The notes under the pieces are model-generated. The model did not search any database and was not told the origin of the DNA. It saw only the letters and a program-made list of their open reading frames with translations. A stretch of DNA of 64,000 bases, taken from the NCBI RefSeq assembly GCF_006539925.1, contig NZ_BJNY01000002.1:186001-250000 (forward strand). The letters run 5' to 3'. The stretch comes from Glutamicibacter uratoxydans (GTDB taxonomy: Bacteria > Actinomycetota > Actinomycetes > Actinomycetales > Micrococcaceae). A program made the translations under genes and the position numbers. Below are positions 37,212 to 62,881 of the stretch, piece after piece (within the stretch, counting starts at the first letter, position 1; the number at the start of each line of letters is the position of its first letter).

Positions 37212-37342
37212 GCCGACAGTGAAACACCAATTGTCGGTTGACGACATGATCTTTCGTTTCTTCCAGCGCCTGCCAAGGTCCCTGCTGGATTAATCGCAAA
37301 GCTCGCTAGGAACTGTAGCTTTCGGCAGGTGGCCAAGGAACA

Positions 37343-37360
37343 TTTGCCGTTAACGGCAAA
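37343..37360. promoter_or_regulatory. 18-bp palindrome upstream of ligD
   Basis: TTTGCCGTTAACGGCAAA is a perfect palindrome 12 bases before the ligD ATG, adjoining its GCGAGGATC ribosome site, in the ku-ligD divergent space. Candidate operator or leader hairpin. Confidence 0.6.
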
Positions 37361-37372
37361 GCGAGGATCCTC

Positions 37373-47622: not shown

Positions 47623-48414
47623 TTAAACAGTCTGTGCAGAGTCCGTCGTTAGAAGTTGCCGGGCCGCCATAGAGATTAATGCGCTATCGGTGCTCACCGG
47701 CATGAATTTGAAGCCGAGCTCGACCATCCGCCGAGCCAAGCCAATCTCCCCCGCATACACCCCGGGGACAACTCCTGCGGCGGCGGCACGCTGCGCGATC
47801 TCTCGCAACACGTGCTGTTGATCTCCCAGGGTCAGTTGCTCTAGGGTCCACCCACAGCTCAAAGCCAAATCATAGGGACCTACAAAGATGGCATCCGGGC
47901 CGGCGGCAAGAATCTCGTCAATATTCTCCAGCCCTTTCGCCGTTTCAATCATGAGCGCCACCAGGGGATCGCTTTCAACTAACCCCGGTGTCTGCACCGG
48001 GTAACGGGGAATTAATCGCGTCGGCCCGTAACTGCGTTTTCCCCTCGGTGCAAACCTGCAAGTTTCAATAATTCCCAGGGCTTGCTGCGCGGTCTCCACG
48101 GTAGGAACAATGACAATACGTGCACCTGCATCGATCGCACGTCCAAGATGCCCTACCTCATTGCTCGGTACTCGCACTCCGGCCGGAATGCCATATACGT
48201 GCGCAGCTTCGAAAAGCGCGCGATAATCGGCTAATTCTGCATGTCCATGCTGTCCGTCAACGCAAACCCAGTCAAAGCCTTCTGCAGCACCCGTCTCGAC
48301 AACAGCCGCATCCCTATAGGTGATCCATAAGCCAAACTTCGCTCTTTCGTCACTCAAATTCAACGAAGGCTGCGTCTGATTGCTGGTTCGAGCACTCGTA
48401 CCGTAAATCTTCAT
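47623..48414 (-). CDS. HpcH/HpaI family class II aldolase
   Basis: Pyruvate-dependent aldolase of 263 residues, TIM barrel. Motifs: FGLWITYRDAAVVE, GFDWVCVDGQHG (His base), GVRVPSNEVGHLGRAID, IVPTVETAQQA, MIETAKGLENIDEI (metal Glu) and FVGPYDLALS. The family splits 4-hydroxy-2-oxo acids (2-dehydro-3-deoxyglucarate, 4-hydroxy-2-oxoheptanedioate and others) to pyruvate plus an aldehyde. An in-frame ATG at 48432 is an alternative start. Behind an IclR-type palindrome pair at 48484-48518. Confidence 0.88.
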   Translation of the reverse strand: MKIYGTSARTSNQTQPSLNLSDERAKFGLWITYRDAAVVETGAAEGFDWVCVDGQHGHAELADYRALFEAAHVYGIPAGVRVPSNEVGHLGRAIDAGARIVIVPTVETAQQALGIIETCRFAPRGKRSYGPTRLIPRYPVQTPGLVESDPLVALMIETAKGLENIDEILAAGPDAIFVGPYDLALSCGWTLEQLTLGDQQHVLREIAQRAAAAGVVPGVYAGEIGLARRMVELGFKFMPVSTDSALISMAARQLLTTDSAQTV

Positions 48415-48483
48415 CTTCCAAACCCCTTGCATTGCAGGACCGCTGAATTGTCGATTGGCTCACAACTGAAACTCTACTCTTAT

Positions 48484-48518
48484 GTTCATCCAGCAATCAA
48501 TCTATTCATTCAATGAAC
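48484..48518. promoter_or_regulatory. Operator pair of the GTTCA-N5-TGAAC regulon (aldolase)
   Basis: ATTCATTCAATGAAC at 48504-48518 (9 of 10 consensus bases) and GTTCATCCAGCAATC at 48484-48498 (7 of 10), starts 20 bp apart, 70-104 bases before the aldolase start. Confidence 0.7.
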
Positions 48519-48533
48519 ACTTATGTTAATCGG

Positions 48534-48580
48534 GGACAGCTATCCCGCAACACCACAAAGGGGCTGAGGGATAGCTGTCC
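48534..48580 (-). terminator. Terminator of MHS transporter 1
   Basis: Perfect 13-bp arms (48534-48546 and 48568-48580) 14 bases past the stop of the transporter, separating it from the aldolase promoter. Confidence 0.8.
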
Positions 48581-48594
48581 ACCGAGAATCCGAC

Positions 48595-50085
48595 TTAGCG
48601 GCGGGTTACCAACATCATCATGGAAGTATCCAGGTGTTCGTTGCTGTCCTGGCCGTTGGCCAGGGCTTCAGCCTCCTCCTTGCTTCGCACCACAGGCACG
48701 GATCCGAGCAGCGGCCGAGCGGCGGTTTCACGCAGCTTGAACGTGGCCACCAAGGCAACCACAGAGAAGAACATGATGTAGTAGGCCGGAGCGAAATGAT
48801 CACCGGTGACGTTCACCAAAATCTGGCTGACCAGCGGGGTGGTACCGCCAAAAATCGATATCGCCAGGTTATGGGTAACGCCAACTCCCCCGTACCGAGA
48901 GGCCGTGGGAAAGAGTTCGGACATTACAGAACCTGTCAATGCCAAGAAGAAGGCACTTGGCAGCATCACCAGCGCCAACGAAACATACAGCGACCACAGT
49001 TCGCCAACATGCATCAAAGCGAACGCTGGAACCAAAAGAACCAGATTGCCGATGGTGGCCATAACATAAATCGGACGGCGTCCTATCTTGTCAGACCAGA
49101 TGGCGATAATGGGAATAAGAATCGCCTGGACCACGAGCACCGCCACCGCCGCGACAGCCGTGTGCACGGCAGGGGAACCAATTTCCGCTTCCAGATATGT
49201 CGGCATGTAGCTGGTAAGCATGTAGGAGGACGTGCCATCTGCGGCAATCAAGGCACAGCCGATCAAGATCTGCGGCCAGTAATGACGCAGAATATTAGGC
49301 AAATTATGGCGAATGAAAATCGGGTTGACGTCGCCCTCTTCTGACAATTCCTGAGCGGCCTCAAAACTGGGCGACTCAGGAATACGATGGCGAAGCATGA
49401 TGGCAACGATGCCCAGGGGAAGAGCTACCAAGAATGGAATTCGCCAACCTCCATCAAGCATTGCGCTTTCACCCCATGCTGAAGTCGTGAGCATGGTTGT
49501 TGCCGCCACCACCGCGGCACCGGCGGCAAATCCCAGCATTGAACCGGAGTTCAGCAGCGCTGTCATGAATCCACGGCGGTTGTCCGGGGAAAATTCGGCT
49601 ACGTAAGTGGCAGCCCCTGAATACTCGCCTCCGGTAGAGAATCCCTGCATCATCTTCAGCAGATACAGGGGGATAATCACCCACAGCCCGACCTGTCCCG
49701 CCGTGGGAAGCAAACCAATCAACGTGGTCGCTGCAGCCATAAGGGCAATGGTAAAGAACATGACCTTTCGGCGTCCGATCTTATCCCCGATCGGTCCGAG
49801 AATCATGCCGCCCAAGGGGCGAACTACGAACGAAACCGCAAAGCCCAAGAGCGTCACCAGCAGTCCCATGGTTTGATCCATGCCTTCAGTGAAGACCGCC
49901 GTCATGGTCACCGCCAGGTAGCCGTAGACGCCGATGTCATACCACTCGATGAAATTGCCGATACCGGCCCCGAACTGTGCACGGCGCAGCTCTTCCTTGT
50001 CCACCACAATGCAATCGTCAGCTCGCAGCCGCCGAGTGGTTTTCGGCAGCGCGGGGCGCTGCAATTTCGATGATTCGCTCACCAT
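48595..50085 (-). CDS. MHS-type MFS transporter 1
   Basis: Metabolite:H+ symporter of 496 residues with 12 hydrophobic segments. Family marks: GIGNFIEWYDIGVYGYLA at helix 1, GDKIGRRKVMFFTI (A motif), LLKMMQGFSTGGEYSGAATYVAEF at helix 4 and the second-half repeat SDKIGRRPIYV. MHS carriers take up 2-oxoglutarate, proline, betaines or aromatic acids. Very similar to the carrier at 58864. The ATG at 50085 has GGAAAGAGAAT before it. Operator pair at 50175-50209. Confidence 0.9.
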   Translation of the reverse strand: MVSESSKLQRPALPKTTRRLRADDCIVVDKEELRRAQFGAGIGNFIEWYDIGVYGYLAVTMTAVFTEGMDQTMGLLVTLLGFAVSFVVRPLGGMILGPIGDKIGRRKVMFFTIALMAAATTLIGLLPTAGQVGLWVIIPLYLLKMMQGFSTGGEYSGAATYVAEFSPDNRRGFMTALLNSGSMLGFAAGAAVVAATTMLTTSAWGESAMLDGGWRIPFLVALPLGIVAIMLRHRIPESPSFEAAQELSEEGDVNPIFIRHNLPNILRHYWPQILIGCALIAADGTSSYMLTSYMPTYLEAEIGSPAVHTAVAAVAVLVVQAILIPIIAIWSDKIGRRPIYVMATIGNLVLLVPAFALMHVGELWSLYVSLALVMLPSAFFLALTGSVMSELFPTASRYGGVGVTHNLAISIFGGTTPLVSQILVNVTGDHFAPAYYIMFFSVVALVATFKLRETAARPLLGSVPVVRSKEEAEALANGQDSNEHLDTSMMMLVTRR

Positions 50086-50174
50086 ATTCTCTTTCCTGCC
50101 GGGAACAATGCGGGCATCAGACGCCCGGAGTGATGTACTGGCCCACACTAGGCCCCACAACATCGTTTTGAAGC

Positions 50175-50209
50175 GTTCAACTAATGATCACTTGATTTAT
50201 CTAGTGAAC
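50175..50209. promoter_or_regulatory. Operator pair of the GTTCA-N5-TGAAC regulon (MHS 1)
   Basis: GTTCAACTAATGATC at 50175-50189 (9 of 10) and ATTTATCTAGTGAAC at 50195-50209 (8 of 10), starts 20 bp apart, about 90 bases before the transporter start. Confidence 0.72.
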
Positions 50210-50429
50210 ATTAACCTGCGGTGATTTACAACACGTTTTCAAAAATTCCCGACGTACCCGAGCGCGGAAAAACTCGAAATGCACTGAGAACTTCAGCGTG
50301 ACGTGCAAGAAAGCGGATCTGGTCGAAACTGAAACTTTCTACTGTTCCAACCAAGGAAACTCGTCGAGTTTTCTCAGATTCCCTCTAGCGCTATGCGCAC
50401 GCTAACTGATAGCGTGACTGTAGTCCAGC

Positions 50430-50444
50430 GTTCATTCAATGAAC
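50430..50444. promoter_or_regulatory. Perfect GTTCA-N5-TGAAC palindrome, isolated
   Basis: GTTCATTCAATGAAC matches all ten consensus bases; the position 20 bp downstream matches only 5 of 10. It lies in the 700-bp space 50086-50785, 340 bases before the MFS gene at 50786. The rest of that space holds no clear gene; a 50-codon frame at 50501-50653 has GGAG before its ATG but poor composition. Confidence 0.72.
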
Positions 50445-50785
50445 TTTACGACCGCTGGATGCTCTTTTTCCTTCGCCTTTCTAATTCGCGGAGTTCCACC
50501 ATGAACTGTTTCAACTGCTGGGGTACCATGAGTCGTTATGCCATGACCACCGGCCAGACGGTCCCATTGGATGCCGTCACCGCGTCGCATAAAAGCAGTT
50601 TCACTTCCACGGCAGGCCGAACGCCCAGCACGCTGCTCTCACTTAAGCGATAGCAGCGGCTGCGTCCAGAACTGTCTTGCCCGAATTTCCCGGGCACTTC
50701 GATGCCCTAATTCTCAGGTCAGCGCATTATTTCGGCATGCTCAGATGCCTCTTCATAGTTACGCACCCTTAAATGAGAAGGTGAA

Positions 50786-52057
50786 GTGAACATCCCCCTG
50801 TTCCGTGGGCGCAAGCCCCTCAGCGCCAACCCGACCCTTAATCTCACCGGCGCTGGAATCGCCCTTATTGCCGTCTGTTACGGACTCGCCCGGTTTGGCT
50901 ACGGTTTCTTTACACCAATCTTTCGCACCGAATTCAGCCTCTCCCCTACGACCATCGGATTCTTTGCTTCAGCGTCCTACATCGCATACTGCGCAGCAAT
51001 CATTGCGGCCACGCTGCTGACAACTTCCTTGGGCGCCCGCAATCTTGTCATTGCTTCCGGCCTTTTGGCGGCCGGTTCAATGGCCGGGATCGCGTTGGCC
51101 CCCAATGCGTCCGCATTAGGGACCGCGGTCGCCGCTACGGGATTCTGCACGGGCTTGGTGTCCCCACCCTTGGCGACTGTGATCGCTGAGAATGTTGCAC
51201 AGAAATATCAGAGCCGAGTGCAGACAATGGTGAATTCCGGAGCTGGCGTAGGTGTGGTGATCAGCGTTCCCATCGCAATGACTGTTTCAAGTCACTGGCG
51301 ACTATCCTGGCTGCTGTTTGCGGCGCTGGCTCTTGCAGCCACCTTATGGATCACGCGCAGCGCCCCACGACCGCTCCCGCGTTTGTCGCCGGATATTCAG
51401 CTCGCCGATACAGGTCTAAGAATCCGCCTGCTCCCGCGCCCGGCCTTCCCGGTTGGAAGCATCCGTTTGATTTCCGCCTCCGCTCTGCTCGGCGCCAGTT
51501 CCACCGCAATGCTGACTTTCGGACGCGATTTCCTCATCGTCGTTGGCCAGCAATCAGCAGCAATCACGACCACCGCCTGGGTGATGCTCGGTGCCAGCGG
51601 ATTAGTTGGAGCAGCCGCTGGAAGTCTTAGTGCGCGTTTTGGCCTAGGGCTCTCGTGGTTCTTCGGCTGTGTGAGTATGAGCGTAGCGTCCTTGGTACTG
51701 ATCGTTTGGCCAAACAGCTCCTCACTCGGGCTGATCTCCATGACATTGTTCGGCGCCGCCTACACCACCTCTGCCGGATTCCTCTTAGTTTGGTGCATAC
51801 AGGTCTATTACCGCGCTCAATCGGTGGGCGTGGGCATGGCATTCCTCGTTATCGCGTTAGGGCAAGCCATAGCAACACCGCTATTTGGCTTCCTCATGGT
51901 TCAGTTTGGCGCGGCCATGCCGTTCTATGCAGCAGCCGCCTGTGGTCTTGCCGCCGGACTCATCATGCCCCGGATTTCTGTACTGCCGATTACGACGCTG
52001 ATGGAAATCATTCCCGTGGACCAAAATCCTGATCCTCAGATGCCTGCCCAAACGTGA
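50786..52057 (+). CDS. YbfB/YjiJ-type MFS transporter
   Basis: Membrane carrier of 423 residues, 12 hydrophobic segments, GTG start preceded by GAGAAGGTGAA. The first helix CYGLARFGYGFFTPIFRTEF is the signature of the YbfB/YjiJ subfamily. The substrate is unknown. Its position in the catabolic region and the palindrome upstream suggest a part in uptake or export of a pathway compound, but the 340-base distance leaves this open. Confidence 0.85.
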   Translation: MNIPLFRGRKPLSANPTLNLTGAGIALIAVCYGLARFGYGFFTPIFRTEFSLSPTTIGFFASASYIAYCAAIIAATLLTTSLGARNLVIASGLLAAGSMAGIALAPNASALGTAVAATGFCTGLVSPPLATVIAENVAQKYQSRVQTMVNSGAGVGVVISVPIAMTVSSHWRLSWLLFAALALAATLWITRSAPRPLPRLSPDIQLADTGLRIRLLPRPAFPVGSIRLISASALLGASSTAMLTFGRDFLIVVGQQSAAITTTAWVMLGASGLVGAAAGSLSARFGLGLSWFFGCVSMSVASLVLIVWPNSSSLGLISMTLFGAAYTTSAGFLLVWCIQVYYRAQSVGVGMAFLVIALGQAIATPLFGFLMVQFGAAMPFYAAAACGLAAGLIMPRISVLPITTLMEIIPVDQNPDPQMPAQT

Positions 52058-52192
52058 ATAGCATGCCGGATTAACTCAGCCGCTGTTTCCACCGGAGCAC
52101 TGCCATAAGCAGTCCGCTGTGGCTTGGCACCATCCACTGCACGAGAACCATGTTGTGTCCGTTCCAAGTGCTTGATGTTGCAGCCGTAGTCC

Positions 52193-52241
52193 ATGACAGA
52201 ACGCCGCTGGTTTATCTTGAAAACCAGCGGCGTTCTGTCAT
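52193..52241. terminator. Bidirectional terminator, 21-bp stem
   Basis: Perfect 21-bp arms (52193-52213, 52221-52241) around a 7-nt loop, between the convergent MFS and racemase genes. Confidence 0.88.
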
Positions 52242-52323
52242 CTTGGAGCAACGTCACTCATTCAAATATCGATGTTCCGGCTTCACATTTGCTGCGCAGC
52301 ACAAACCTTCTCACTCAGCATTC

Positions 52324-53373
52324 CTACCAAATATCGCCTATGGTGTATCCCTCTGGAAACGGATCGGTGGGGTCCAAGACGTATTTGCTGAATCCGGAAA
52401 TCCAACACTGTCCGCTGATGGTGGGAACGATGGCTTGCTGCCCATGCAGCATGGTTTCCTCGACTATCCGCCCGGTAAAACGAATCCCCAGCAGTCCCTC
52501 ATTCAGCAGACTGTCCCCCGGCATCAAGTTGCCCTTCGCGTATTCAACCGCCATGATGGCACATGTTCCCGTACCGCAACATCCACGATCCAGCGCTCCG
52601 GTCCAGGTTTCAGGTCGCTCGAAATCAACCTCACCAGACAACATCACGTTCGATGTGCGGATATCGACTCCCGGCGTAGGAGAAGGAGCACGCATTATGG
52701 AGAGGGTAATGCCGACTCCCGGATAGTCGGGGTGTTCCACCGGCAGCTGTTCCTAGGCTGCTTTCGTCACCAAAGCTGAAATTCTAATAATTTCTTTCCC
52801 CTGCTCTGGAATCAGCTCTAAATGCTGGAACTGCGTGGCATCAATGATGACGTAGAACATTCCGCCCCATGCCACATCGACGGTGACCGGCCCCAGATGC
52901 GGGACCTCTATCACCTTATCCATGTACACCGGAAACGACGGGACGTTTTGGAAAGTGACCTGTGTGGCCTTGCCGTCCTTGCATTCTGCTGTGATCGGGA
53001 TCAGTCCAGCCGGAGCCTCAAGATTGAAAGATGTCACCGGCTCCTGCATGCGCACCATCCCCGTCTCTAAAAGAGCCGCGGCCACTGCAAGGACGTTGCC
53101 GCCGCTCATCATAGGGTATTCGACTTGTTCCATGATGATGAACCCAGCATCGGCCCGTGGATCTTTTGCTGGAACGATGAGGTTGGCGCATAGCGCCGGC
53201 ACACCACGCGGCTCGCGCAGCATCAGCTTTCGCAGCTGATCATCGTTCTTTTCCATCCAACGCGCCATTTCATAGACAGAGTTGCCCGGGATGGTGGGCA
53301 CTCCGCTGGTTATTACCCTCAGTGGAGCCCCTTCGTGGACTTCAACCGCGTCAAACATTCTTTTAAACGCCAC
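52324..53373 (-). pseudogene. Proline racemase-family gene split by an in-frame TAG
   Basis: One 349-codon frame of the proline racemase/4-hydroxyproline epimerase/trans-3-hydroxyproline dehydratase family, broken by TAG at 52753-52755. N-terminal part 53373-52753 (206 residues, GTG start behind AGAAAGGCATAACT) holds MSGGN where the first catalytic residue of the family lies, here Ser in place of Cys. After the stop the same frame continues Glu-Gln-Leu-Pro-Val-Glu-His-Pro and contains DRGCCGTGTCA, the second active-site Cys motif. Both halves are needed for the pocket. A single CAG-to-TAG change would explain it. A GTG at 52740 could restart translation, but no ribosome site is seen. It follows the MDR gene by 44 bases. 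Confidence 0.85.
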
Positions 53374-53417
53374 AGTTATGCCTTTCTGAACTTATTTCTT
53401 TGCCGCGCAAGGCTTTA

Positions 53418-54512
53418 CTAATGAACTGCCGGTGGAACAAGAACGAGTTTGCCCATGTGTTTTTTCGACAAAAAGTCTTCTTGAGCGAGGGAAATCTGCT
53501 CCAGAGGGTAAACCTTGGCAACGTGCGGTCGAATTTCATTGCGTTCCACATAGCCGATCAAGTTCTCAAAGATGTGGTCGTCCTGGAATGTGCATCCCAG
53601 GACGCGCAGATCATTGAGGTAGATCGTGCGCAGGTCCACCTCAGTTATCGGGCCGCCGATCGCCCCGGCGATTGCATAGCGCCCGCCCTTGCGTAATGCG
53701 GACAGACGCTCATTCACGCCTTCTCCGCAGACCACGTCCAGCACCACATGAACCGGTTCATTCAGTTCCTTCGACAACTCCGCCGAACGATCCAAGACTT
53801 CGTCCGCGCCCTGCTGCAACACCGTCTGCACCTTTGACGCCCCGCTCAAGGCAATGACATAAGCGCCGCGCCGCTTAGCAAGCTGTACAGCGGCCAAGCC
53901 GACTCCACCGGATGCGCCGGTAACCAAGACGCGCTCGCCTGCTTCCACGCCGGCACGATCGAGCATTAGCTCTGCCGTCGAATAGGCACAGGGAACCGCA
54001 GCAAGCTCCTCATCGCTCCAGTCGCTGTCCACCTTGTAGGTTTCCCGCGAGGGTGCCACAGCATACTGAGCGAAGCCTCCGTTGCATTCGCTGCCAAAGG
54101 TCCAGCATTCCCACGGACGGTAATCCACATAGCTGCGCAGCATATTGCGCACCAGCACACGCTCGCCCAAACGGGATTCAGCTACGCCTTCTCCTACAGC
54201 AACGATCTCTCCACAAACATCCGCACCCTGGATCAACGGAAATTTCAACGAGGCTCCAGACCAGCTAGCGTCCTCTTCGTCCGTCTGTTCAAAACCCGTC
54301 GCGCCTCCCCGCTCCGTGGCCTCTGAAATTTGTTTTGAGTACCACCCGATACGGGTGTTGATATCCGTGTTATTTACTGCGGAAGCTTTGACGTTGATCA
54401 AGACTTCCCCGGGCCCGGGACTCGGAACTGCAACGTTTGTCCGATATTCAAGCTTTTCAATGCCGCCGTGCCCGGTTAGCACCACAGCCGCCATGGTTTT
54501 GTGTTCAGTCAT
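53418..54512 (-). CDS. Zinc-less MDR, quinone-oxidoreductase-like alcohol dehydrogenase
   Basis: Medium-chain reductase of 364 residues, start MTEHKTMAAVVLTGHG with AAAGGATTCTTTG before the ATG. GroES-like N-terminus (PGPGEVLINVKASAVNNTDINTR: Asn where zinc enzymes have Cys), GADVCGEIVAVGEG, then NAD(P) site GASGGVGLAAVQLA. No catalytic zinc ligands, as in quinone oxidoreductases and related enoyl reductases. An unusual insertion, EATERGGATGFEQTDEEDA, lies after residue 55. First gene of a transcript with the racemase-family gene, behind the tandem palindromes. Confidence 0.85.
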   Translation of the reverse strand: MTEHKTMAAVVLTGHGGIEKLEYRTNVAVPSPGPGEVLINVKASAVNNTDINTRIGWYSKQISEATERGGATGFEQTDEEDASWSGASLKFPLIQGADVCGEIVAVGEGVAESRLGERVLVRNMLRSYVDYRPWECWTFGSECNGGFAQYAVAPSRETYKVDSDWSDEELAAVPCAYSTAELMLDRAGVEAGERVLVTGASGGVGLAAVQLAKRRGAYVIALSGASKVQTVLQQGADEVLDRSAELSKELNEPVHVVLDVVCGEGVNERLSALRKGGRYAIAGAIGGPITEVDLRTIYLNDLRVLGCTFQDDHIFENLIGYVERNEIRPHVAKVYPLEQISLAQEDFLSKKHMGKLVLVPPAVH

Positions 54513-54591
54513 CAAAGAATCCTTTCGATCGAGGTTCCCTATATTTTTCTGCCCCGCAATGGACAACAGGAGGAACGGGAGAAGCTATAAC

Positions 54592-54627
54592 GTTCAAAAA
54601 TTGAACACTTACGTTCATAAATTGAAC
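54592..54627. promoter_or_regulatory. Two perfect GTTCA-N5-TGAAC operators between MDR and iclR
   Basis: GTTCAAAAATTGAAC at 54592-54606 and GTTCATAAATTGAAC at 54613-54627, starts 21 bp apart (two helical turns), in the space between the divergent MDR and second iclR genes. The strongest pair of the series, as expected for an autoregulated IclR gene. Confidence 0.85.
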
Positions 54628-54745
54628 GTACTCGAGTAACTTAGGATTCAAAGACCATAAAGGTCAAGAGTCTTGAGCCAACCGGCGGAAATGTTTCTTG
54701 ACGGACATTATGCAAAAATGGCGAAAACAGCAGGAGACATTTCAA

Positions 54746-55534
54746 ATGACGCACGAAGTGCCAGCGGGTGAACCCAGCAATCTGGCGAACAAGTCGGTAA
54801 TCAAGGCCCTGGGAATACTTTCGGCCTTAGGTAACTTCCCGAACGGAGCTACTGCCACCGACCTTGCAGAAGCGACCAAGACGTCCCGCCCAACCGTCTT
54901 TCGCATGTTGTTGAGCCTAGAAGCTGCGTCTTATGTTGAACGCAACGACTCGACCTACCACCTCGGATGGGAGCTGCTGCGCCTTAGCCGGCTACCGCAT
55001 CTAGACCGTGGGCTGGCGCTGAGGGTCGAGCCCATCTTGGACAGGTGCGCCAAAATGGTCAACGAAACCGTCAATTTCGCGCTCTCCGGTCCTGACGGCT
55101 ACTTCGACATCGTGGCAGAAGGATCCTCCCACCGCATTCTCACGACGGAGGAGCAGTTCATCGGCAAGCACTTCCCCCCTCACGCAAGCAGTTCAGGAAA
55201 GCTTCTACTTAGCGAGCTACCAAGCGCTCAGGTTGCGGCATTGCTGCCGGAAGCCCTGGAAAAATTCACGGAACGCACCATCACCTCCCGCGAAGCACTG
55301 CAGCACGAATTGGCGCAGATCAAGTCCCAAGGCTTTGCGGTGTTAGACGGTGAGCTAGAAGACGGGCTTTACTCGTTGAGTGTTCCGGTGCGCGCCGCAG
55401 AGGGCGAGCTCATTGGCGCCATCGCCGCCTATGGGCCATCCGAGCGAATGAAGCGGCAAGGGGCACAGCGCATCGCAAAGCAACTGCAAGCAGCAGCGAA
55501 AGAAGTCGCCCAGGCTCTGGTTTCAAGGAATTAA
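54746..55534 (+). CDS. IclR family regulator (second), likely regulon controller
   Basis: IclR-type regulator of 262 residues. Winged helix NLANKSVIKALGILSALG then ATDLAEATKTSRPTVFRMLL; effector domain with HASSSGKLLLSEL and GLYSLSVPVRAAEGELIGAIA. Start MTHEVPAG is set by AGGAGACATTTCAA; an upstream TTG (54698) would add 16 residues. Divergent from the MDR gene with both perfect operators between. Because the same palindrome precedes five other units in the region, this is my candidate for the protein that binds it. Confidence 0.9.
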   Translation: MTHEVPAGEPSNLANKSVIKALGILSALGNFPNGATATDLAEATKTSRPTVFRMLLSLEAASYVERNDSTYHLGWELLRLSRLPHLDRGLALRVEPILDRCAKMVNETVNFALSGPDGYFDIVAEGSSHRILTTEEQFIGKHFPPHASSSGKLLLSELPSAQVAALLPEALEKFTERTITSREALQHELAQIKSQGFAVLDGELEDGLYSLSVPVRAAEGELIGAIAAYGPSERMKRQGAQRIAKQLQAAAKEVAQALVSRN

Positions 55535-55568
55535 AACCAGGCCGGTTCAGCTGCCGGAAACATAATCG

Positions 55569-55596
55569 TGCCCAGTGGACCTAGGTCCACTGGGCA
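55569..55596. terminator. Perfect 28-bp palindrome, bidirectional terminator
   Basis: Arms TGCCCAGTGGACCT and its complement with almost no loop, between the convergent iclR and flavin oxidase genes. Confidence 0.75.
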
Positions 55597-55605
55597 GCGG
55601 TGATC

Positions 55606-56910
55606 TTAGTTTTCGTCGAGCGCTTGGGCAACTTCCCTGGACACACGCAGACCGCTTTCGATGGCCCCATCGAAGAATCCCGCCCACAGGTTGGCAATGT
55701 CGGCTCCCGCCAAGTGCAGATGACCCTCAGGCCGCTGCAACTCCGCTTGGCTTTGGGAATAGGCCCCGGGTCGGTGGATCAACCACGTTTCTTTAGCGTG
55801 CGGATCGGCGTTCCAGTCGTGTGCGGCAATTTCCAGCACTTCGAGGTCGTCGCGCCACACCTGCAACGCTTTAGATACTTCTTCGACACTGGTGACATCA
55901 ATGCGCGAGGCGTCCGCGCCGAAGGAAACAAGAACGGCGTCGTCTTCGCCTACGAATTCGGTACGCACGACCGACAACGGATGGTCCTTGGTGGAGTAGG
56001 CAAAGAATGGCTTGATAGGACCCTTCACGCGAATCCATAGCTTGACGCCCTGAGATGCGGTACCTGCCTGGCTCGCTTGACGCTTGGCTTCGGACAGCGG
56101 CGGGGTGATGTCCAGTTCGTGCAGGATGTTCAGCGGGGCAGTGAGGATGACCTTGCGGGCGCGAAGTGTTGAACCATTCTCCAGTGCAACGCTGACGCCT
56201 TGGTCATCGTGCTCAATAGCAGTCACCGGAGCATTGAGCCGGACTTCTCCTTTAATATCTGCGGCAATGGACTTTACCAGCTGATCATTGCCGTCCTTGA
56301 GGCGGTACACCGAGCTTGCTTCGTGCATGACCTTCCAAGCGCCGGATGTAGCGGCGGTCCAACGAATTGCAGCGCTGAAGCCGACCTGGTCCAACGGGCC
56401 GTTACAGTGCCCTACCCAAGCCGCCTCGTTGGCCTGGCGTTCGTCATCGCTTAAATCGAGTGCATCCAACGCCTGCTGCAAGGTCAGCTGGTCTGCGGCG
56501 GCGAAATCTTCGTCCGAAGCAATCAGGTCAGGACGCGGCAGCAGTTTGCCAGAGGCACCAACCAACGCTTCCATCCCCGGGTCGATCAAATCCATAAAGC
56601 CGGGAAGATCGCCCTTTTGCAGCTCCCCGTTGGCGAACCAATAGGTTTCTTCGGCCCTGGCAAGCCGATCAGCTTCTAGGCCATAACGGGTGACCTCGGA
56701 CCATACGTGGGGCTGGGTCCAATGCATCCAGTTGCCGCCGAGCTCAAGATACTTCCCAAAACGCTGTTCGGTATACAAGCGCCCGCCCAAGCGGTCCCGC
56801 GCCTCCAAAACTATTACTTTCTTGCCGCGTGCACTTAGTTCACGTGCGGCGGTCACTCCCGCCAGTCCTGCGCCAATGACAATGACATCGGCGTCATAGT
56901 TCGTGCTCAT
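55606..56910 (-). CDS. Flavin-containing amine oxidase
   Basis: FAD enzyme of 434 residues, flavin monoamine oxidase/putrescine oxidase superfamily (also that of 6-hydroxynicotine oxidase). Dinucleotide fold VIVIGAGLAGVTAARELSARG, then VLEARDRLGGRLYT and GGNWMHWTQPH; C-terminal FAD site HLAGADIANLWAGFFDGAIESG. It oxidises a primary or secondary amine to an imine with release of H2O2. FAD may be bound non-covalently (no obvious Cys at the usual MAO place). AGGAGAAGCATC precedes the ATG. Divergent from the PucR regulator; no palindrome of the IclR type is in front of it. Confidence 0.87.
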   Translation of the reverse strand: MSTNYDADVIVIGAGLAGVTAARELSARGKKVIVLEARDRLGGRLYTEQRFGKYLELGGNWMHWTQPHVWSEVTRYGLEADRLARAEETYWFANGELQKGDLPGFMDLIDPGMEALVGASGKLLPRPDLIASDEDFAAADQLTLQQALDALDLSDDERQANEAAWVGHCNGPLDQVGFSAAIRWTAATSGAWKVMHEASSVYRLKDGNDQLVKSIAADIKGEVRLNAPVTAIEHDDQGVSVALENGSTLRARKVILTAPLNILHELDITPPLSEAKRQASQAGTASQGVKLWIRVKGPIKPFFAYSTKDHPLSVVRTEFVGEDDAVLVSFGADASRIDVTSVEEVSKALQVWRDDLEVLEIAAHDWNADPHAKETWLIHRPGAYSQSQAELQRPEGHLHLAGADIANLWAGFFDGAIESGLRVSREVAQALDEN

Positions 56911-57033
56911 GATGCTTCTCCTAAGCTGTTGGTTCTCGTTCCTTCGAGCATAGGAAGCATCACTGCGCACTTCATTCATACAGAGCTATGATATTCAGAT
57001 AATTTTATGACCTATTGCTAAAGGATTTTTGTT

Positions 57034-58413
57034 GTGGCTTCGCTGCTCAGCATTGCAGATCTCATTGCCGATCCGACCTTGGACACCTCGGTGCTCGCCG
57101 GAGCCAGCGGTCTACACAGAACCGTCCGGTGGGCCCAGACCAGCGAATCCGCTGAACCGTGGCGTTGGCTCGGCGATGAGGAGCTGCTCATGACCTTGGG
57201 ACTGAACTTGCCCGTTCATCCCGAACAGCAGGCCGAGTTTATTCGCCATGCGCATCAGGCAGGAATCGCCGGAATGACTGTGGGTCAAGATGGTCTGGCC
57301 CCCGAGTTGAGTCCTGAGATGCTGGAGGAAGCTGATCGACTGGCTTTTCCGCTGTTGTCCACCGGACCGCAGACTCCCTTTGTCGTCATCGCCCGCACCG
57401 TCGCTGCGGTGACCACCAATGAACTCAACCGCGGGGTCCTCATTCTTTCGCGGCTATACCAAGAAGCAGGAAGCCGTTCATCCCAAGAAAAAAGGCGCGG
57501 GGATTGGCTGGAAAAGCTCTGCGGCGTCAAAGCAGCAGTTCAGGATACCGGCACCGAATGCATCGTGATCGGCGACGTTCCCAACACTGCCATCCGCCGG
57601 CACTCTCTGCCCACACTTCGGGCGACGCAACTGCTGCTTTCGGTTGAAGCAGAGCTGGATTCGCTAGTTCTGGTGCACCTCAAACAAATCCTCACCGTAG
57701 ACGCCAATGCGCTGCTGCAGGCAGCTGACAGCGCAATTGCCTCAGGAGATGCCACATTGCGCTTGGCGTTGGACGGCCGGGTAAGTGAAACGGAGATCCA
57801 GTCCGGGCGGTGGTTGCGGCCAAGTGAACCGTTTCGCGTATTATGCGGCAGTGAATCCGCCCTTGGCACTATCGCCATGTTCCTAACATTGCGCGAATTG
57901 ACGCCGCTAGCTACGGCATGGAAGCGGCGAACCTTAGCAGTCGTCAGGCAGCAGGATTTACCGGCGCTTGAGGCACTGATACAGAGCACCAGTATCAAGC
58001 TGGGAATGAGTGCTCCGTACTACCGCTTCGCCGATCTTCCCGGAGCAGCGGAAGAGGCGCATAGTGCCTTCGACTGCGCCACGGACCAGCTGCCATTGGC
58101 AGAATTCTCCGGACTGCAGGTTTCGCTGCTGGCCCGTTCGCGCAGTGAAGCCGAGCAGATATGCCGCAGCGTACTCGGCGGCTTGAGCGCAGATACCGCC
58201 TCGGTGAACACCTACAGGGAATCACTTTTTTCCCTGCTGGATCACGACCTGCAATGGCAGCATACGGCATCCGCTCTGGGCATTCACCGGCAGACTCTCG
58301 TCTACAGAATCAAGCAGGCTGAAGCACTATGCGGACGCAGTGTTCGCCGGGTAGCGGATCTTTCAGAACTTTATCTGGCCCACCGGGCATGGCAACTGCT
58401 CAAGAAGCAGTAA
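57034..58413 (+). CDS. PucR family transcriptional regulator
   Basis: Regulator of 459 residues, GTG start behind AAGGATTTTTGTT. N-terminal PucR-like domain (SIADLIADPTLDTSVLAGASGL to DEELLMTLGLNL), a middle GGDEF-like region and a C-terminal helix-turn-helix (HTASALGIHRQTLVYRIKQAE). PucR proteins control purine, polyamine and amino acid breakdown. Divergent from the flavin amine oxidase 123 bases away, which is its most likely target; amine-oxidase/PucR pairs are common in actinobacteria. Confidence 0.9.
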   Translation: MASLLSIADLIADPTLDTSVLAGASGLHRTVRWAQTSESAEPWRWLGDEELLMTLGLNLPVHPEQQAEFIRHAHQAGIAGMTVGQDGLAPELSPEMLEEADRLAFPLLSTGPQTPFVVIARTVAAVTTNELNRGVLILSRLYQEAGSRSSQEKRRGDWLEKLCGVKAAVQDTGTECIVIGDVPNTAIRRHSLPTLRATQLLLSVEAELDSLVLVHLKQILTVDANALLQAADSAIASGDATLRLALDGRVSETEIQSGRWLRPSEPFRVLCGSESALGTIAMFLTLRELTPLATAWKRRTLAVVRQQDLPALEALIQSTSIKLGMSAPYYRFADLPGAAEEAHSAFDCATDQLPLAEFSGLQVSLLARSRSEAEQICRSVLGGLSADTASVNTYRESLFSLLDHDLQWQHTASALGIHRQTLVYRIKQAEALCGRSVRRVADLSELYLAHRAWQLLKKQ

Positions 58414-58607
58414 TCCAGTACCACCAGAAAACGATTCGGCGTCGACGCCCGTCCCGCGGACCCCGTTTGTTCACATGGCCCTGATGTGGACACCCGCAGC
58501 TTCCCACGCTTGCCCTTAAGTGCGGGATTTCCGCGAAAGTACGCTTTCAAAAGTCCACCATGCGAAAAATACTGTTGACTGGATCACAGCAAGAAGCCTA
58601 TCCTTTC

Positions 58608-58642
58608 ATTCAGTAGATAATCATTACGTTCATTCAGTGAAC
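58608..58642. promoter_or_regulatory. Operator pair of the GTTCA-N5-TGAAC regulon (MHS 2)
   Basis: Perfect GTTCATTCAGTGAAC at 58628-58642 and ATTCAGTAGATAATC at 58608-58622 (7 of 10), starts 20 bp apart, 220 bases before the second MHS transporter. The rest of the 450-bp space 58414-58863 holds no gene I can support. Confidence 0.78.
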
Positions 58643-58863
58643 ATTAAACTTTGTGGGAGAACTTTATCAGCAGAGTTTCGGCGGTTCCTGCGGATTGGCC
58701 TCATCACCGGGCAAAGCAGGGCGGGGCTATGAGCAAGCCTGGACCGGCCGCAAATTCTCAAAGAAAGACAGGGACGTTACCGGCGGAACACTGATGCTTT
58801 CAAAAAAAGCGGCATCCGGTACAGGCAGCAATTTTGGCTGCCGGAGATTTATGAGGCGGGAAA

Positions 58864-60348
58864 ATGTCAGAGTCACAATCCAAGCGAAACCAGCTCACCG
58901 GCCCCTCACGCCGACTGCGGGCTGAGGATTGCATTATTGCCGATAAAAAGTCACTCCATCAGGCCCAGATCGGCGCTGGCGTGGGAAACTTCATTGAGTG
59001 GTACGACATCGGGGTTTACGGATACCTCGCGGTGTTAATGACAAGGGTCTTCACCGAGGGCATGGATCAGGCTTGGGGCTTGCTGGTCACACTCCTGGGT
59101 TTTGCCGTGTCATTTGTCGTTCGGCCGATCGGAGGCATGATTCTCGGTCCATTGGGCGATCGCATTGGACGACGCAAGGTCATGCTCTTCACCATCTTGC
59201 TTATGGCTGCAGCAACAACATTGATAGGACTGCTTCCCAGCGCCGGCCAAGTCGGCCTGTGGGTCATCATTCCGCTGTACCTGCTGAAGATGCTGCAAGG
59301 CTTCTCCACCGGCGGCGAGTATTCCGGCGCCGCCACCTACATTGCCGAGTTCTCTCCGGACGGCCGCCGCGCCTTTATGACCTCCCTGCTCAATGTCGGA
59401 TCGCAACTGGGTTTCGCCGCTGGCGCCGGAGTCGTGGCCCTCACCACCATCATCGCCGAAAACAACTTCGGTCCGGACGCCATGCTCAACGGCGGATGGC
59501 GCATCCCGTTCCTTTTGGCCCTCCCCCTAGGCATCGTTGCCGTGTCTTTGCGCAGCCGCCTTCCGGAATCCCCTGCTTTCGAGGTCGCCTCGGAAGTTCC
59601 GCTCGATCACGACCCTGATTCGATCTTCGTCCGCCACAGCCTTCCACGAGTGATCAAACTGTATTGGCCTCACATTCTGGTCGGCATGGCGCTGATCGCT
59701 GCGGACGGTACCAGCTCCTATACCTTGACGAGTTACATGCCCACCTACCTCGAAACCCAGGTCGGCATCCACGCTTCGCATACGGCACTGGCGGCCGTGG
59801 TGATCCTGGCCGTACAGGCAGCCATGATTCCTTTATTTGCCCTACTGGCAGACAAGGTAGGACGCAAGAAGGTATATATGATTGCCACCATCGGCAATTT
59901 GGTTCTCCTGCTTCCCGCCTTTGCCCTTATGCAAACCGGCACCATTGGATCGCTGTACCTGGCATTATTCCTGGTTTCAGTGCCAAGCTCGGCCTTCCTG
60001 GCATTGACCGCATGCGTAATGTCGGAACTATTTCCCACAGCTTCGCGCTATACCGGCGTCGGCATCACACACAACCTCGCCATTTCCATTTTCGGTGGCA
60101 CCACTCCACTAATTTCTCAAGCACTCGTGCAGTCCACCGGCAAATGGTACGTGCCGGCCATCTATGTCATGGCATTTTCGCTGATCGCACTCTTGGCGTT
60201 ATGCAAAATGCGCGAGACCGCCGGTCGTCCACTACTGGGTTCCTTCCCGGTTGTGGCCTCTAACGAGGATGCTGTGGAACTCGCTGGCGGTCAAGACACC
60301 GACCCGAGGATTGATACAACAACTTTCCCGCTCACAGCGGTCAAGTAA
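58864..60348 (+). CDS. MHS-type MFS transporter 2
   Basis: Metabolite:H+ symporter of 494 residues, paralogue of the carrier at 48595; long stretches such as GNFIEWYDIGVYGYLA, LVTLLGFAVSFVVRP and GFSTGGEYSGAATY are the same, and identity appears to be near 70 percent over the first half. GDRIGRRKVM is the A motif. Uptake of a small acid, imino acid or betaine is likely. Alone on its transcript, closed by the hairpin at 60379. Confidence 0.9.
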   Translation: MSESQSKRNQLTGPSRRLRAEDCIIADKKSLHQAQIGAGVGNFIEWYDIGVYGYLAVLMTRVFTEGMDQAWGLLVTLLGFAVSFVVRPIGGMILGPLGDRIGRRKVMLFTILLMAAATTLIGLLPSAGQVGLWVIIPLYLLKMLQGFSTGGEYSGAATYIAEFSPDGRRAFMTSLLNVGSQLGFAAGAGVVALTTIIAENNFGPDAMLNGGWRIPFLLALPLGIVAVSLRSRLPESPAFEVASEVPLDHDPDSIFVRHSLPRVIKLYWPHILVGMALIAADGTSSYTLTSYMPTYLETQVGIHASHTALAAVVILAVQAAMIPLFALLADKVGRKKVYMIATIGNLVLLLPAFALMQTGTIGSLYLALFLVSVPSSAFLALTACVMSELFPTASRYTGVGITHNLAISIFGGTTPLISQALVQSTGKWYVPAIYVMAFSLIALLALCKMRETAGRPLLGSFPVVASNEDAVELAGGQDTDPRIDTTTFPLTAVK

Positions 60349-60378
60349 CAAAAATATATTAGATTAGTCTCCTAATTT

Positions 60379-60411
60379 GCGGGGCGGGCTTAGAGGTCCG
60401 CCCCGCTCTTT
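60379..60411 (+). terminator. Rho-independent terminator of MHS 2
   Basis: GCGGGGCGG (60379-60387) and CCGCCCCGC (60398-60406), 10-nt loop, followed by TCTTTTT. Confidence 0.9.
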
Positions 60412-60446
60412 TTGCCCTTTACCCACAATGATCCGAAAACAAAATA

Positions 60447-60481
60447 ATTCATAGAATGAACACTATAGTCATGGAATGGAT
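60447..60481. promoter_or_regulatory. Operator pair of the GTTCA-N5-TGAAC regulon (quinone oxidoreductase)
   Basis: ATTCATAGAATGAAC at 60447-60461 (9 of 10) and AGTCATGGAATGGAT at 60467-60481 (6 of 10), starts 20 bp apart, some 220 bases before the quinone oxidoreductase start. Confidence 0.68.
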
Positions 60482-60697
60482 GTTTTGTTATCCTAGAACT
60501 GCGGGGCCTTTGACGAGAGACACCGCAAATCGAGGCAGACACGGTGAAATTTCAGACCCTTGTCCTGGCGGCGCCGTTATGCGGCACATCGACCTGTCGT
60601 CCAGGAGCAAGCAGGTCTGCTTGAGTTCCGGAGCGGCGCATCGCCCGACTCTCCCATACTTCACTGTGTCTGCCTCGCCGTGTATCAGCGAAAGGTT

Positions 60698-61669
60698 ATG
60701 ATCATCAAAGCTATTCAAATCACCGAGTTCGGCGGCCCCGAGGTTTTACGTTTGGCAGACGTTCCGGTGCCAGGCATTTCGCCGACAGATATTTTGGTGC
60801 GCACCGAAGCTATCGGTGTCAATTTCATCGACACCTACTACCGCGAAGGCGTCTATCCAACCGATCTGCCCTTCATCCCGGGCGATGAGGCGTCCGGCGT
60901 GGTGGTGGAAGTCGGCACGGCTGTTTCCGATATTAAGGTCGGCGATCGGGTCGCCTGGACCTCGCCGCACGGCTCCTATGCCGAATTCGTTGCAGTACCG
61001 GCTGCAGCGGCGGTCATCATCCCAGAGGGGCTTAGCCCGGATCTTGCCGCTTCCTGTCTGGCACAGGGAATGACAGCGCACTACCTCGCACACTCAACCT
61101 ACGAGATTCAACCTTCGGATCACGTGCTCATTCACGCCGGTGCCGGTGGTGTAGGCCTGTTGCTGACCCAGATGGCGGCCGCTCGGGGAGCCACGGTCAT
61201 CACCACCGTCTCCAGCCCCGAGAAAGCCAAACTCTCCACCTCCGCCGGTGCCGCGCATGTCTTGGATTACGGCCCCCAACTGGCACAGCAAGTTCGCGAG
61301 CTGACCGACGGACAAGGCGTTGCAGCGAGCTATGACGGCGTCGGAGCGGCAACGTTCCGCGCCTCACTTGATGCCACGAGGGCTCGCGGCACTGTGGTGC
61401 TTTTCGGCGCCGCCAGCGGTCCGGTACCGCCCCTGGATCCCCAAGAGCTGAATAAGGCCGGCTCCCTGTTCCTCACGCGCCCAACTATCAGCGATTACAC
61501 CCGTGACCGGGCAGAACTGCTCTGGCGTGCGGAATCGGTGCTTCGCGGCATACAGGAAGAAAAGCTCTCGGTGACCATTGGAGGCCGTTACGCCTTAGCA
61601 GATGCAGCCCAGGCGCACCGCGACCTTCAGGAGCGGCGAAGCTCCGGTGCCCTGGTGCTCATCCCCTAA
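60698..61669 (+). CDS. NADPH:quinone oxidoreductase (MDR family)
   Basis: Zinc-less medium-chain reductase of 323 residues, the usual QOR length. Start MIIKAIQITEFGGPEVL is the family start (upstream in-frame ATGs give an unrelated extension). VNFIDTYYREGVYP is the QOR substrate-site motif, and HAGAGGVGLLLTQMA the NADPH site. It reduces quinones or enones with NADPH. A second MDR at 53418 is a distant paralogue. Behind an operator pair at 60447 and closed by a 25-bp hairpin. Confidence 0.9.
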   Translation: MIIKAIQITEFGGPEVLRLADVPVPGISPTDILVRTEAIGVNFIDTYYREGVYPTDLPFIPGDEASGVVVEVGTAVSDIKVGDRVAWTSPHGSYAEFVAVPAAAAVIIPEGLSPDLAASCLAQGMTAHYLAHSTYEIQPSDHVLIHAGAGGVGLLLTQMAAARGATVITTVSSPEKAKLSTSAGAAHVLDYGPQLAQQVRELTDGQGVAASYDGVGAATFRASLDATRARGTVVLFGAASGPVPPLDPQELNKAGSLFLTRPTISDYTRDRAELLWRAESVLRGIQEEKLSVTIGGRYALADAAQAHRDLQERRSSGALVLIP

Positions 61670-61684
61670 CCTGAGAACAGTCGA

Positions 61685-61738
61685 AAAACATAGTGAAGGA
61701 AGGCGAGGCAGCCGCCTCGCCTTCCTTCACTATGTTTT
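61685..61738. terminator. 25-bp perfect hairpin, bidirectional terminator
   Basis: Arms 61685-61709 and 61714-61738 pair without mismatch around a 4-nt loop, with A and T runs at the ends. It closes the quinone oxidoreductase and, on the other strand, begins at the stop codon of the small gene at 61737. Confidence 0.92.
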
Positions 61739-61922
61739 AGCTCTTTGCCGCAAGATACACGATGCAGCGGCGCGCCAGACTTTTGCTGATTCCCGCCTTT
61801 TGCGCCACGCGTTTTGCATCTGGACGACTCTGCGCTGAAGCTTCTTGACGCTGCATCACCGTGGCTACCCGCTGCACCGCCCAATTGGGAGGCGCGGCAG
61901 GTTCCGCCACCTGCAGGCTCAC
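61737..61922 (-). CDS. Small basic protein coupled to riboflavin kinase
   Basis: Protein of 61 residues, GTG start overlapping the riboflavin kinase stop (GTGA, 61919-61922), and ending exactly at the terminator hairpin, two points that favour a real gene. The C-terminal half AKRVAQKAGISKSLARRC looks helical and could be a helix-turn-helix; it is not a family I know. It would be the second gene of the IclR-controlled riboflavin kinase transcript. Confidence 0.5.
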   Translation of the reverse strand: MSLQVAEPAAPPNWAVQRVATVMQRQEASAQSRPDAKRVAQKAGISKSLARRCIVYLAAKS

Positions 61923-62308
61923 GCCGGCACCGCCATCGGGTAGTGCGACCGCTCACGAGTTTGAGCCACGTCTACATGCAACTGCCGAATCAGCGAGTCG
62001 ACGTCATCGTATTCGTATTGCGGGCGCTGGAAATCAGTAAGAACCACCCTAAGCTTCTGCCCATACAGATCCTCGCTGAAATCAAGCAGATGGGCTTCAA
62101 GCAGCACTTCTCCGCCTTCACGGTAAAACGTTGCCCGTCGCCCCACCGATACGGTAGCCACTACCCGACGCCCCTCGGGCAGCACGACGTAGGCGCCCCA
62201 TACGCCATCCAGCTCATCGTTCTGGGGCATGGTGATGTTTGCGGTGCGAAATCCCAATTCCCTGCCGCGGGCATCCCCGTGCTCCACAATTCCCTCGATT
62301 ACATGCAT
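61919..62308 (-). CDS. Stand-alone riboflavin kinase domain protein
   Basis: Protein of 129 residues matching only the C-terminal kinase domain of RibF: GIVEHGDARGRELGFRTANI (the GxxxGRxxGFPTANx motif with Arg in place of Pro), VWGAYVVLPEGRRVVATVSVG, EAHLLDFSEDLYGQKLRV. It should phosphorylate riboflavin to FMN; the FAD-synthetase domain is absent. The Pro-to-Arg change and some other replacements leave room for a changed role. An operator pair lies directly upstream, so it is probably induced with the catabolic genes and could supply flavin to the oxidases. Confidence 0.8.
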   Translation of the reverse strand: MHVIEGIVEHGDARGRELGFRTANITMPQNDELDGVWGAYVVLPEGRRVVATVSVGRRATFYREGGEVLLEAHLLDFSEDLYGQKLRVVLTDFQRPQYEYDDVDSLIRQLHVDVAQTRERSHYPMAVPA

Positions 62309-62350
62309 GGTGCGCTCCTTTCCATCCCAGCTGCGTCACTCAAACTCTAT

Positions 62351-62385
62351 GTTCACCCAATGAACAAAGTGATTATCTAATGACT
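62351..62385. promoter_or_regulatory. Operator pair of the GTTCA-N5-TGAAC regulon (riboflavin kinase)
   Basis: Perfect GTTCACCCAATGAAC at 62351-62365 and GATTATCTAATGACT at 62371-62385 (6 of 10), starts 20 bp apart, 43-77 bases before the riboflavin kinase start. Confidence 0.78.
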
Positions 62386-62448
62386 ATTATTCTATGGTGT
62401 CCTAGGCCACATGGTCAATTCCCCGCGAAATTTTTCTGCAGCAACCAA

Positions 62449-62503: not shown

Positions 62504-62881
62504 TTAAACTGCGACCGTGACATAGTGTTTTTTGAAGTGCTCGTGAATCTCCCAGAATCCGGACCAGCCATCAGGAATCAAAACGAGATCACCCACCGAG
62601 TGGTCTACTCGTTCGCCCTGGTCAGAAACCAAGGTTCCCGAGCCCTGTAGCACCAGGATGATTTCGTTAACTCCCGTACGCGCGGTTTTGAATACCCCCG
62701 GGGAGCAGGCCCAAAAACCAAGGTCGATCTTGCTTGCGTCCATAGTCGCCACGTTGTCCACGGCATCCGAAGGCTCGGTGCCGTTCACCGCCGTCGGCTT
62801 GAGCACCAGCTGTGCCAATGAAGCATTCTCGACATTGCGCAGCACCCTGGCTTGCGGCGCAGTCGTCGTCATCTGAGTCAT
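62504..62881 (-). CDS. Cupin domain protein (DUF861-type)
   Basis: Single-cupin protein of 125 residues: GVFKTARTGVNEIILVLQGSG and GDLVLIPDGWSGFWEIHEHFKK match the DUF861 group that includes the EutQ C-terminus and ureidoglycine aminohydrolase relatives. The metal-ligand His residues of motif 1 are not conserved (Asn-Glu kept, His missing). Such cupins often sit beside aldehyde dehydrogenases and flavin oxidases of amine catabolism. AGGAAGA precedes the ATG; 31 bases after the dehydrogenase stop. Confidence 0.82.
   Translation of the reverse strand: MTQMTTTAPQARVLRNVENASLAQLVLKPTAVNGTEPSDAVDNVATMDASKIDLGFWACSPGVFKTARTGVNEIILVLQGSGTLVSDQGERVDHSVGDLVLIPDGWSGFWEIHEHFKKHYVTVAV

Follow-up and report, generated by a model that had tools for sequence, protein, structure and literature searches.

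A recurrent GTTCA-N5-TGAAC palindrome as the probable operator of paralogous IclR-family regulators in a catabolic gene cluster of Glutamicibacter uratoxydans

Genes and palindromes of the cluster

The 64,000 nucleotides at positions 186,001 to 250,000 of contig NZ_BJNY01000002.1 of Glutamicibacter uratoxydans (NCBI RefSeq assembly GCF_006539925.1), referred to here as the window, carry a catabolic gene cluster in which the 15-bp palindrome GTTCA-N5-TGAAC recurs. With good confidence, this element can be regarded as the operator of group-1 (PcaR-like) IclR repressors, two paralogs of which would share its core over a catabolic regulon.

The two candidate repressors are IclR1 (46463–47275, minus strand) and IclR2 (54746–55534, plus strand). 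Between them, all on the minus strand, lie an HpcH/HpaI-type aldolase (47623–48432), the ProP-like metabolite/H+ symporter MHS1 (48595–50163), a gene of the proline racemase/trans-3-hydroxyproline dehydratase family (52324–53373), and an MDR-family oxidoreductase that is divergent to iclR2 (53418–54566). The racemase-family gene is split into two open reading frames (ORFs) in the window (52324–52740 and 52753–53373); G004, a genome of the same genus, has it as one ORF of 349 aa. Beyond iclR2 are found a flavin adenine dinucleotide (FAD) amine oxidase family protein (55606–56979, minus), a PucR/PmfR-like regulator (57034–58413, plus), a second ProP-like symporter, MHS2 (58864–60348, plus), a quinone oxidoreductase (QOR) family protein (60560–61669, plus), a stand-alone riboflavin kinase (RFK) consisting of a Flavokinase domain only (61919–62308, minus), a cupin (62504–62881, minus), and an aldehyde dehydrogenase (62913–64000, minus), which continues past the window end. 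There, its remainder is accompanied by a 2-oxopent-4-enoate-type hydratase, a SnoaL protein, a flavin reductase, and a flavin mononucleotide (FMN)-dependent monooxygenase of the NtaA/DmoA family (LLM).

The palindrome occupies seven places among these genes. Before the aldolase, the one-mismatch candidate operator ATTCATTCAATGAAC (48504–48518) has the partner GTTCATCCAGCAATC (48484–48498), which retains 7 of the 10 specified bases; before MHS1, GTTCAACTAATGATC (50175–50189, one mismatch) has a partner with 8 of 10 at a distance of 20 bp (50195–50209). A perfect, unpaired palindrome of uncertain role lies between MHS1 and an MFS gene (50430–50444). The intergenic region of iclR2 and the MDR gene holds two perfect copies 21 bp apart, the left at 54592–54606 and the right at 54613–54627. 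MHS2 is preceded by a perfect copy (58628–58642) with a 7-of-10 partner at 20 bp (58608–58622), the QOR gene by ATTCATAGAATGAAC (60447–60461, one mismatch) with a 6-of-10 partner (60467–60481), and the RFK gene by a perfect copy (62351–62365) with a 6-of-10 partner at 20 bp (62371–62385).

Frequency in the window, genome, and genus

A reading of this DNA made earlier from the sequence alone had counted five perfect palindromes in the window against 0.06 expected, and both figures hold: the scan returns five, dinucleotide shuffles give 0.06, and none of 100 shuffles reaches five. The three copies with one change that it had listed (48504, 50175, 60447) are all real in the window scan, which adds two more at 9969 and 39656, the latter falling within an ORF.

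Across the whole genome (3.79 Mb), 16 perfect sites are found against 2 for a reversed-pattern control, and 137 sites against 53 when one mismatch is allowed. The 16 comprise the five in the window, one at C2:253675, two on contig C9, and eight that are scattered. The site at C2:253675, 3.7 kb past the window end, precedes the LLM gene and has a partner at 20 bp. On contig C9, four sites (two perfect and two with one mismatch; L024:9595–9717) form two pairs 19 bp apart between genes that appear, by eye, to be thiolase-like and MFS-like, with other IclR genes nearby.

Among 18 genomes of the genus, the two that carry both IclR1 and IclR2 contain 16 and 13 perfect sites, and the other 16 contain 2–10 (mean 4.5, against a reversed-control mean of 1.8), which makes further users of the core likely. 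The sequence-only reading would have been refuted had unrelated promoters throughout the genome carried the palindrome equally often; the genus counts of 16 and 13 against a mean of 4.5 do not bear this out.

Tandem sites and predicted promoters

At six of the seven window places, a partner with 6–10 of 10 matches begins 20 or 21 bp from the main site, a recount that agrees with the earlier one. The same arrangement recurs upstream of LLM genes in relatives (their sampling is described in the next section), where 20 bp is the top partner offset both at IclR1-type promoters (mean 7.0 of 10 against 2.5; 8 sites, leaving aside L107, which has no site, and the near-duplicate L118) and at IclR2-type promoters (mean 5.9 of 10 against 2.5; 17 sites, leaving aside L141, which has no site). 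A spacing of 20 as opposed to 21 bp was considered as a mark distinguishing the paralogs and was rejected, as IclR2-type LLM promoters also show 20 bp. At more distant LLM promoters (e.g., L135, L137, and L142), a second site recurs some 130 bp further upstream than the main site, which may reflect a divergent promoter or looping.

Promoter predictions, which covered 14 of the 48 LLM loci and were then repeated on all 48, place these pairs close to the expected start of transcription. Of 19 near-type LLM promoters (at least 58% identity), 14 have the −10 element of the best sigma-70-like prediction starting 27–29 bp ahead of the main operator, a placement seen at 5.5% in shuffles; in the more distant LLM type, it starts 15 bp before the main operator in 11 of 16, overlapping the partner site, and never at 27–29 bp. 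The LLM, RFK, and MHS2 promoters of the G. uratoxydans genome and of G004 have the −28/−29 geometry in six of six cases, and at these genes the partner site starts 2–3 bp after the predicted −10, covering the expected transcription start. The predicted MHS2 promoter (58575–58604, plus; −35 TTGACT, −10 TATCCT) has its −10 starting 29 bp before the main operator, and that of the RFK gene (62389–62418, minus; −35 TTGACC, −10 TAGAAT) lies directly upstream of the operator pair. For MHS1, QOR, and the aldolase, the promoter search gave no convincing promoter. As the operator mostly overlaps or directly follows the predicted −10, repression by steric block is likely.

At one fixed place in the −35/−10 spacer, 10 of 20 chosen promoters also contain a TGTGR-N6-NCAC-like element, including the RFK promoter (62396–62411) and the LLM promoter near C2:253730; this element is presumed to be CRP/GlxR-like.

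Conservation in relatives

In G004, where IclR2 is 67% identical and most cluster genes are kept in a different order, paired sites precede RFK, LLM, MHS2/aldolase, and iclR2/MDR, the last pair with the 21-bp spacing of the window and a one-mismatch counterpart of the site at 54613. Two one-mismatch matches in G004, at 22061 and 25951 of the joined stretch, fall inside ORFs and were left out of the operator count. The comparison of intergenic regions in relatives that keep iclR2, which the sequence-only reading had proposed, thus finds the operator retained with the cluster, and loss of the motif where the cluster persists, the other outcome it had envisaged, is not what is seen.

Homologs of IclR2 are present in 18, and of IclR1 in 9, of 395 family genomes (E ≤ 1e-60, own genome included). 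At the level of the order, the search with IclR2 (E ≤ 1e-60) added one genome outside the family and that with IclR1 (E ≤ 1e-65) added none. The 22 stretches around these homologs contain an LLM relative in 18 cases and a site with at most one mismatch in 20; L079 and L082 have neither. A single-protein IclR2 scan of genome contigs confirmed no relative and was replaced by one built on an LLM alignment. The latter returned 53 loci, of which 48 were used and 5 dropped (at most 36% identity); removal of L147, with its short upstream DNA, and of 4 near-duplicates left 43 dereplicated LLM upstream regions.

When all 5-mers and spacers of 0–12 are compared in these 43 regions, GTTCA-N5-TGAAC tops the list of inverted repeats; it is perfect in 22 and present with at most one mismatch in 32, where 59 permuted half-sites average 0.03 and 0.42. 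The next-commonest repeats, CGTTC with spacer 7 (15 loci) and TGAAC-N5-GTTCA (14 loci), are, respectively, a shifted register of the palindrome and the sequence formed where partner and main site adjoin. Paired sites also precede several related MHS genes. Beyond the Actinomycetota, LLM genes 66–69% identical to that of G. uratoxydans and preceded by the operator are found in Paraburkholderia (L114), Bartonella (L115), Ventosimonas (L119), and Paucimonas (L121), the operator being perfect in the first two and having one mismatch in the last two; the genes have likely moved together with their operator by horizontal transfer.

Two paralogs and one core operator

IclR1 and IclR2 both contain HTH_IclR and IclR_C domains above the Pfam cut-off. 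With 160.9 and 143.2 bits, they fall below the curated cut-off of 284.75 for TIGR02431 (PcaR/PcaU/PobR), and are related to that subfamily without being members. An IclR homolog is encoded in 39 of the 48 LLM loci, and these proteins fall mainly within three supported clades of the tree: IclR1 (19 rows), IclR2 (39 rows), and a third actinobacterial set (13 rows). The IclR1 and IclR2 clades have invariant R, T, F, and R residues at the predicted contact positions of the recognition helix, which would explain a shared core operator.

The centre of the palindrome differs between the two. At IclR1 loci, 14 of 15 LLM sites combine a pyrimidine at position 6 with a purine at position 10 (Y6/R10), as against 8 of 31 at IclR2-type loci (Fisher p 1.8e-5), a set that includes L138 and L144, which have no IclR gene on their stretches and were assigned by LLM type. 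Restriction to loci with a local IclR2 gene gives 8 of 27 (p 7.5e-5), which becomes 6 of 23 after dereplication (p 5e-5); when each dereplicated locus contributes its nearest site alone, the counts are 9 of 9 against 4 of 13 (p 0.002). In the window, the catabolic sites are IclR1-like in 6 of 7 cases and the iclR2/MDR pair, whose left member has the centre AAAAT, is not; with the flank and G004 included, Y6/R10 is found at 9 of 10 catabolic sites and at none of the 4 iclR2/MDR sites.

Genomes that have IclR1 and no IclR2 at E ≤ 1e-60 bear on the same question. One of them, G012, has paired operators at LLM and MHS1, and in three Rothia/Curtobacterium genomes LLM as well as MHS genes are preceded by operators. 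In a fourth, Rothia santali (L107), the LLM gene lacks a site, and sites are found at one MHS gene and elsewhere. Together, the Y6/R10 pattern and G012 make IclR1 most likely the regulator of the catabolic promoters and IclR2 that of its own promoter and MDR, an assignment made from sequence in which overlap is possible.

A proposed switch and its alternatives

In the mechanism proposed here, two sites separated by 20 bp, one strong and one weaker, would form a two-dimer operator over the predicted transcription start of most catabolic promoters. Without inducer, the repressor, most likely IclR1 (46463) at the catabolic promoters and IclR2 (54746) at its own promoter and MDR, would block RNA polymerase; it would be released by an inducer, for which the substrate or an early intermediate is the probable candidate. 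The regulon would comprise the two-component FMN monooxygenase and flavin reductase, the SnoaL protein, the 2-oxo-acid hydratase, the aldehyde dehydrogenase, the aldolase, the MHS importers, and a dedicated riboflavin kinase, which could plausibly feed FMN to the monooxygenase. A more specific form is offered tentatively, as a possibility to be taken seriously: the paralogs would share one core operator and be told apart by its centre (Y6/R10 for IclR1 and no preference for IclR2), and two modules that are separate in relatives would here be fused and partly cross-wired, with a co-controlled riboflavin kinase ensuring that FMN supply and monooxygenase are induced together.

Several observations weigh against reading the palindrome as an operator shared by the two paralogs. 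The promoter phase is unlike between the LLM types (−28 and −15), and 13 of the 48 LLM loci have no site with at most one mismatch within 300 bp, L147 among them, whose site lies too near the contig end. An upstream site is found in only 1 of 10 aldolase rows, that of G004, and in none of 9 QOR rows from 7 genomes including G004; in the window, the palindrome at 50430 has no partner (5 of 10) and is more than 250 bp from both flanking genes. The rule for the centre is statistical, being broken by 50175 and obeyed by the RFK site of the IclR2-linked L076/L143, and near-type LLM loci with IclR2 number only four, with Y6/R10 in 2 of 6 sites (p 0.01). The IclR genes themselves have an upstream site in 1 of 12 (IclR1 clade), 8 of 30 (IclR2 clade), and 10 of 13 cases (third clade), the stretch being approximated for minus-strand genes, and autoregulation is thus not general for IclR1 and IclR2. 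Other IclR proteins of the genome may use the same core, as at the sites on contig C9. Finally, with up to two mismatches the window shows no enrichment (31 matches against 24.2 expected), which confines the signal to sites with no or one mismatch, and at least 2 of the 8 scattered perfect sites in the genome, half of all 16, lie within ORFs. These last two points are what an effect of chance or base composition would have in its favour; such an effect is scarcely conceivable in view of the enrichment of perfect sites, the fixed partner at 20 bp, the conservation across genera and in Pseudomonadota loci, and the 22 of 43 LLM upstream regions with a perfect copy against 0.03 in permutations.

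The sequence-only reading had assigned the palindromes to an IclR-type regulon whose tandem operators lie on one face of the helix, with the protein encoded at 54746, IclR2, as its regulator. The regulon and its tandem operators are strongly supported by the footprinting and by the published catalogue of IclR motifs (Suvorova and Gelfand 2021, PMC8222616; excerpted text), and IclR2 keeps a place within it. That IclR2 alone governs all sites is unlikely, albeit two perfect sites flank its gene, the motif accompanies IclR2-clade genes in many loci where no local IclR1 is present, and IclR2 may accept any centre and could hence bind every site; yet G012 and the three Rothia/Curtobacterium genomes, which have IclR1 and no IclR2 at E ≤ 1e-60, carry operators before LLM and MHS, and the catabolic sites have the centre seen at IclR1 loci, as the iclR2/MDR sites do not. 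The PucR/PmfR-like regulator (57034), or another regulator of the cluster, is a highly improbable binder. Its gene lies within the cluster in the window genome, G004, and G012, but a PucR relative occurs in 1 of 48 LLM loci (L106, from the G012 genome), as against 39 that encode an IclR homolog and 35 that have a site of at most one mismatch, and PucR was rejected on this count; both motif and spacing, moreover, match the IclR catalogue as far as its excerpts extend (PMC8222616). Activation in place of repression is improbable: the excerpted catalogue does describe IclR proteins that activate or do both (PMC8222616), but activating sites would be expected upstream of the −35, and relative to the starts predicted here the partner lies 2–3 bp after the −10 at LLM, RFK, and MHS2 and overlaps it at 11 of 16 promoters of the more distant type. 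Repression by IclR paralogs through a common core thus remains the preferred reading.

Possible role of the cluster

Judged by its gene families, the cluster may serve to break down a small acid of N-heterocyclic or aromatic type. Riboflavin, which the presence of RFK and the kinship of LLM with riboflavin lyase bring to mind, was not adopted as substrate: the PDB relatives of LLM do include riboflavin lyase, but dimethyl-sulfide and alkane monooxygenases are closer. Pyrrole-2-carboxylate and trigonelline were also considered as substrates and set aside, the gene set having no counterpart among the matches listed from the open-access literature. A stand-alone riboflavin kinase belongs to the catabolic cluster of relatives too (e.g., L101–L104, L106, L117, and L143), and its co-regulation suggests that the cofactor of a two-component flavin monooxygenase is supplied on induction.

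For the cluster, the core of which is present in many Actinomycetota and a few Pseudomonadota, candidate operators are thus in hand together with two repressor candidates. The natural occurrence of genomes with only IclR1, with only IclR2, and with both offers a way to see how a single operator is shared out between duplicated repressors. Elsewhere in the window, divergent genes at 36351–39805 appear, by eye, to encode Ku-like and multidomain ATP-dependent DNA ligase-like proteins (end-joining repair).

Relation to known systems

Among the matches listed from the open-access literature, none describes this gene set or motif, and the cluster is called undescribed on that basis alone. The nearest enzymatic parallel is the riboflavin monooxygenase RcaE of Microbacterium maritypicum (excerpts of PMC12746152 and PMC12934955), likewise an FMN-dependent monooxygenase, to which the riboflavin lyase among the PDB relatives of LLM provides the link; LLM differs in that its closer PDB relatives are dimethyl-sulfide and alkane monooxygenases.

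The type of switch is already known from group-1 IclR regulators, although its combination with this gene set and two similar regulators was not found described among the matches listed from the open-access literature. According to the excerpted text of Suvorova and Gelfand (2021, PMC8222616), the group-1 motif is GKTYCRYW3-4RYGRAMC, tandem sites lie 18–22 nt apart in 94 ortholog groups (not all), aromatic metabolism is the main target of group-1 motifs, and some IclR proteins activate or both activate and repress. GTTCA-N5-TGAAC fits the core GTYCR...YGRAC, the outer T/A of the TGT-11-ACA subgroup not being fixed here; the distances of 20/21 bp at six of seven window places, with 20 bp on top in relatives, lie within the 18–22 nt range between centres, and linkage to an IclR gene, another mark of the group, is found in 39 of 48 LLM loci. 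In common with Corynebacterium glutamicum PcaR (GTTCGC-N3-GCGAAC) and Rhodococcus opacus NpdR (GTTCMRYATMRTGAWS), as given in the same excerpts (PMC8222616), the element is a 15-bp 5-5-5 palindrome with a GTTCR half-site, and it shares with group-1 systems the tandem or three-box sites with centres 18–22 nt apart and targets that are often aromatic catabolism. It differs from PcaR and NpdR, as described there, in its GTTCA/TGAAC half-sites, in the two paralogous regulators per cluster, and in a Y6/R10 preference tied to one of them; the gene set of the cluster does not appear in that excerpted text (PMC8222616).

A further likeness is to the operators of PcaU and PobR, which in the same excerpts consist of a palindrome and an external direct half-site (PMC8222616). 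Here, too, an extra box stands beside the palindrome, and IclR2-type LLM promoters keep mainly the right half of the partner (TGAAC). Unlike the PcaU/PobR arrangement, the partner in the window is a full, though degenerate, site at a distance of 20 bp, in a position that suggests repression.

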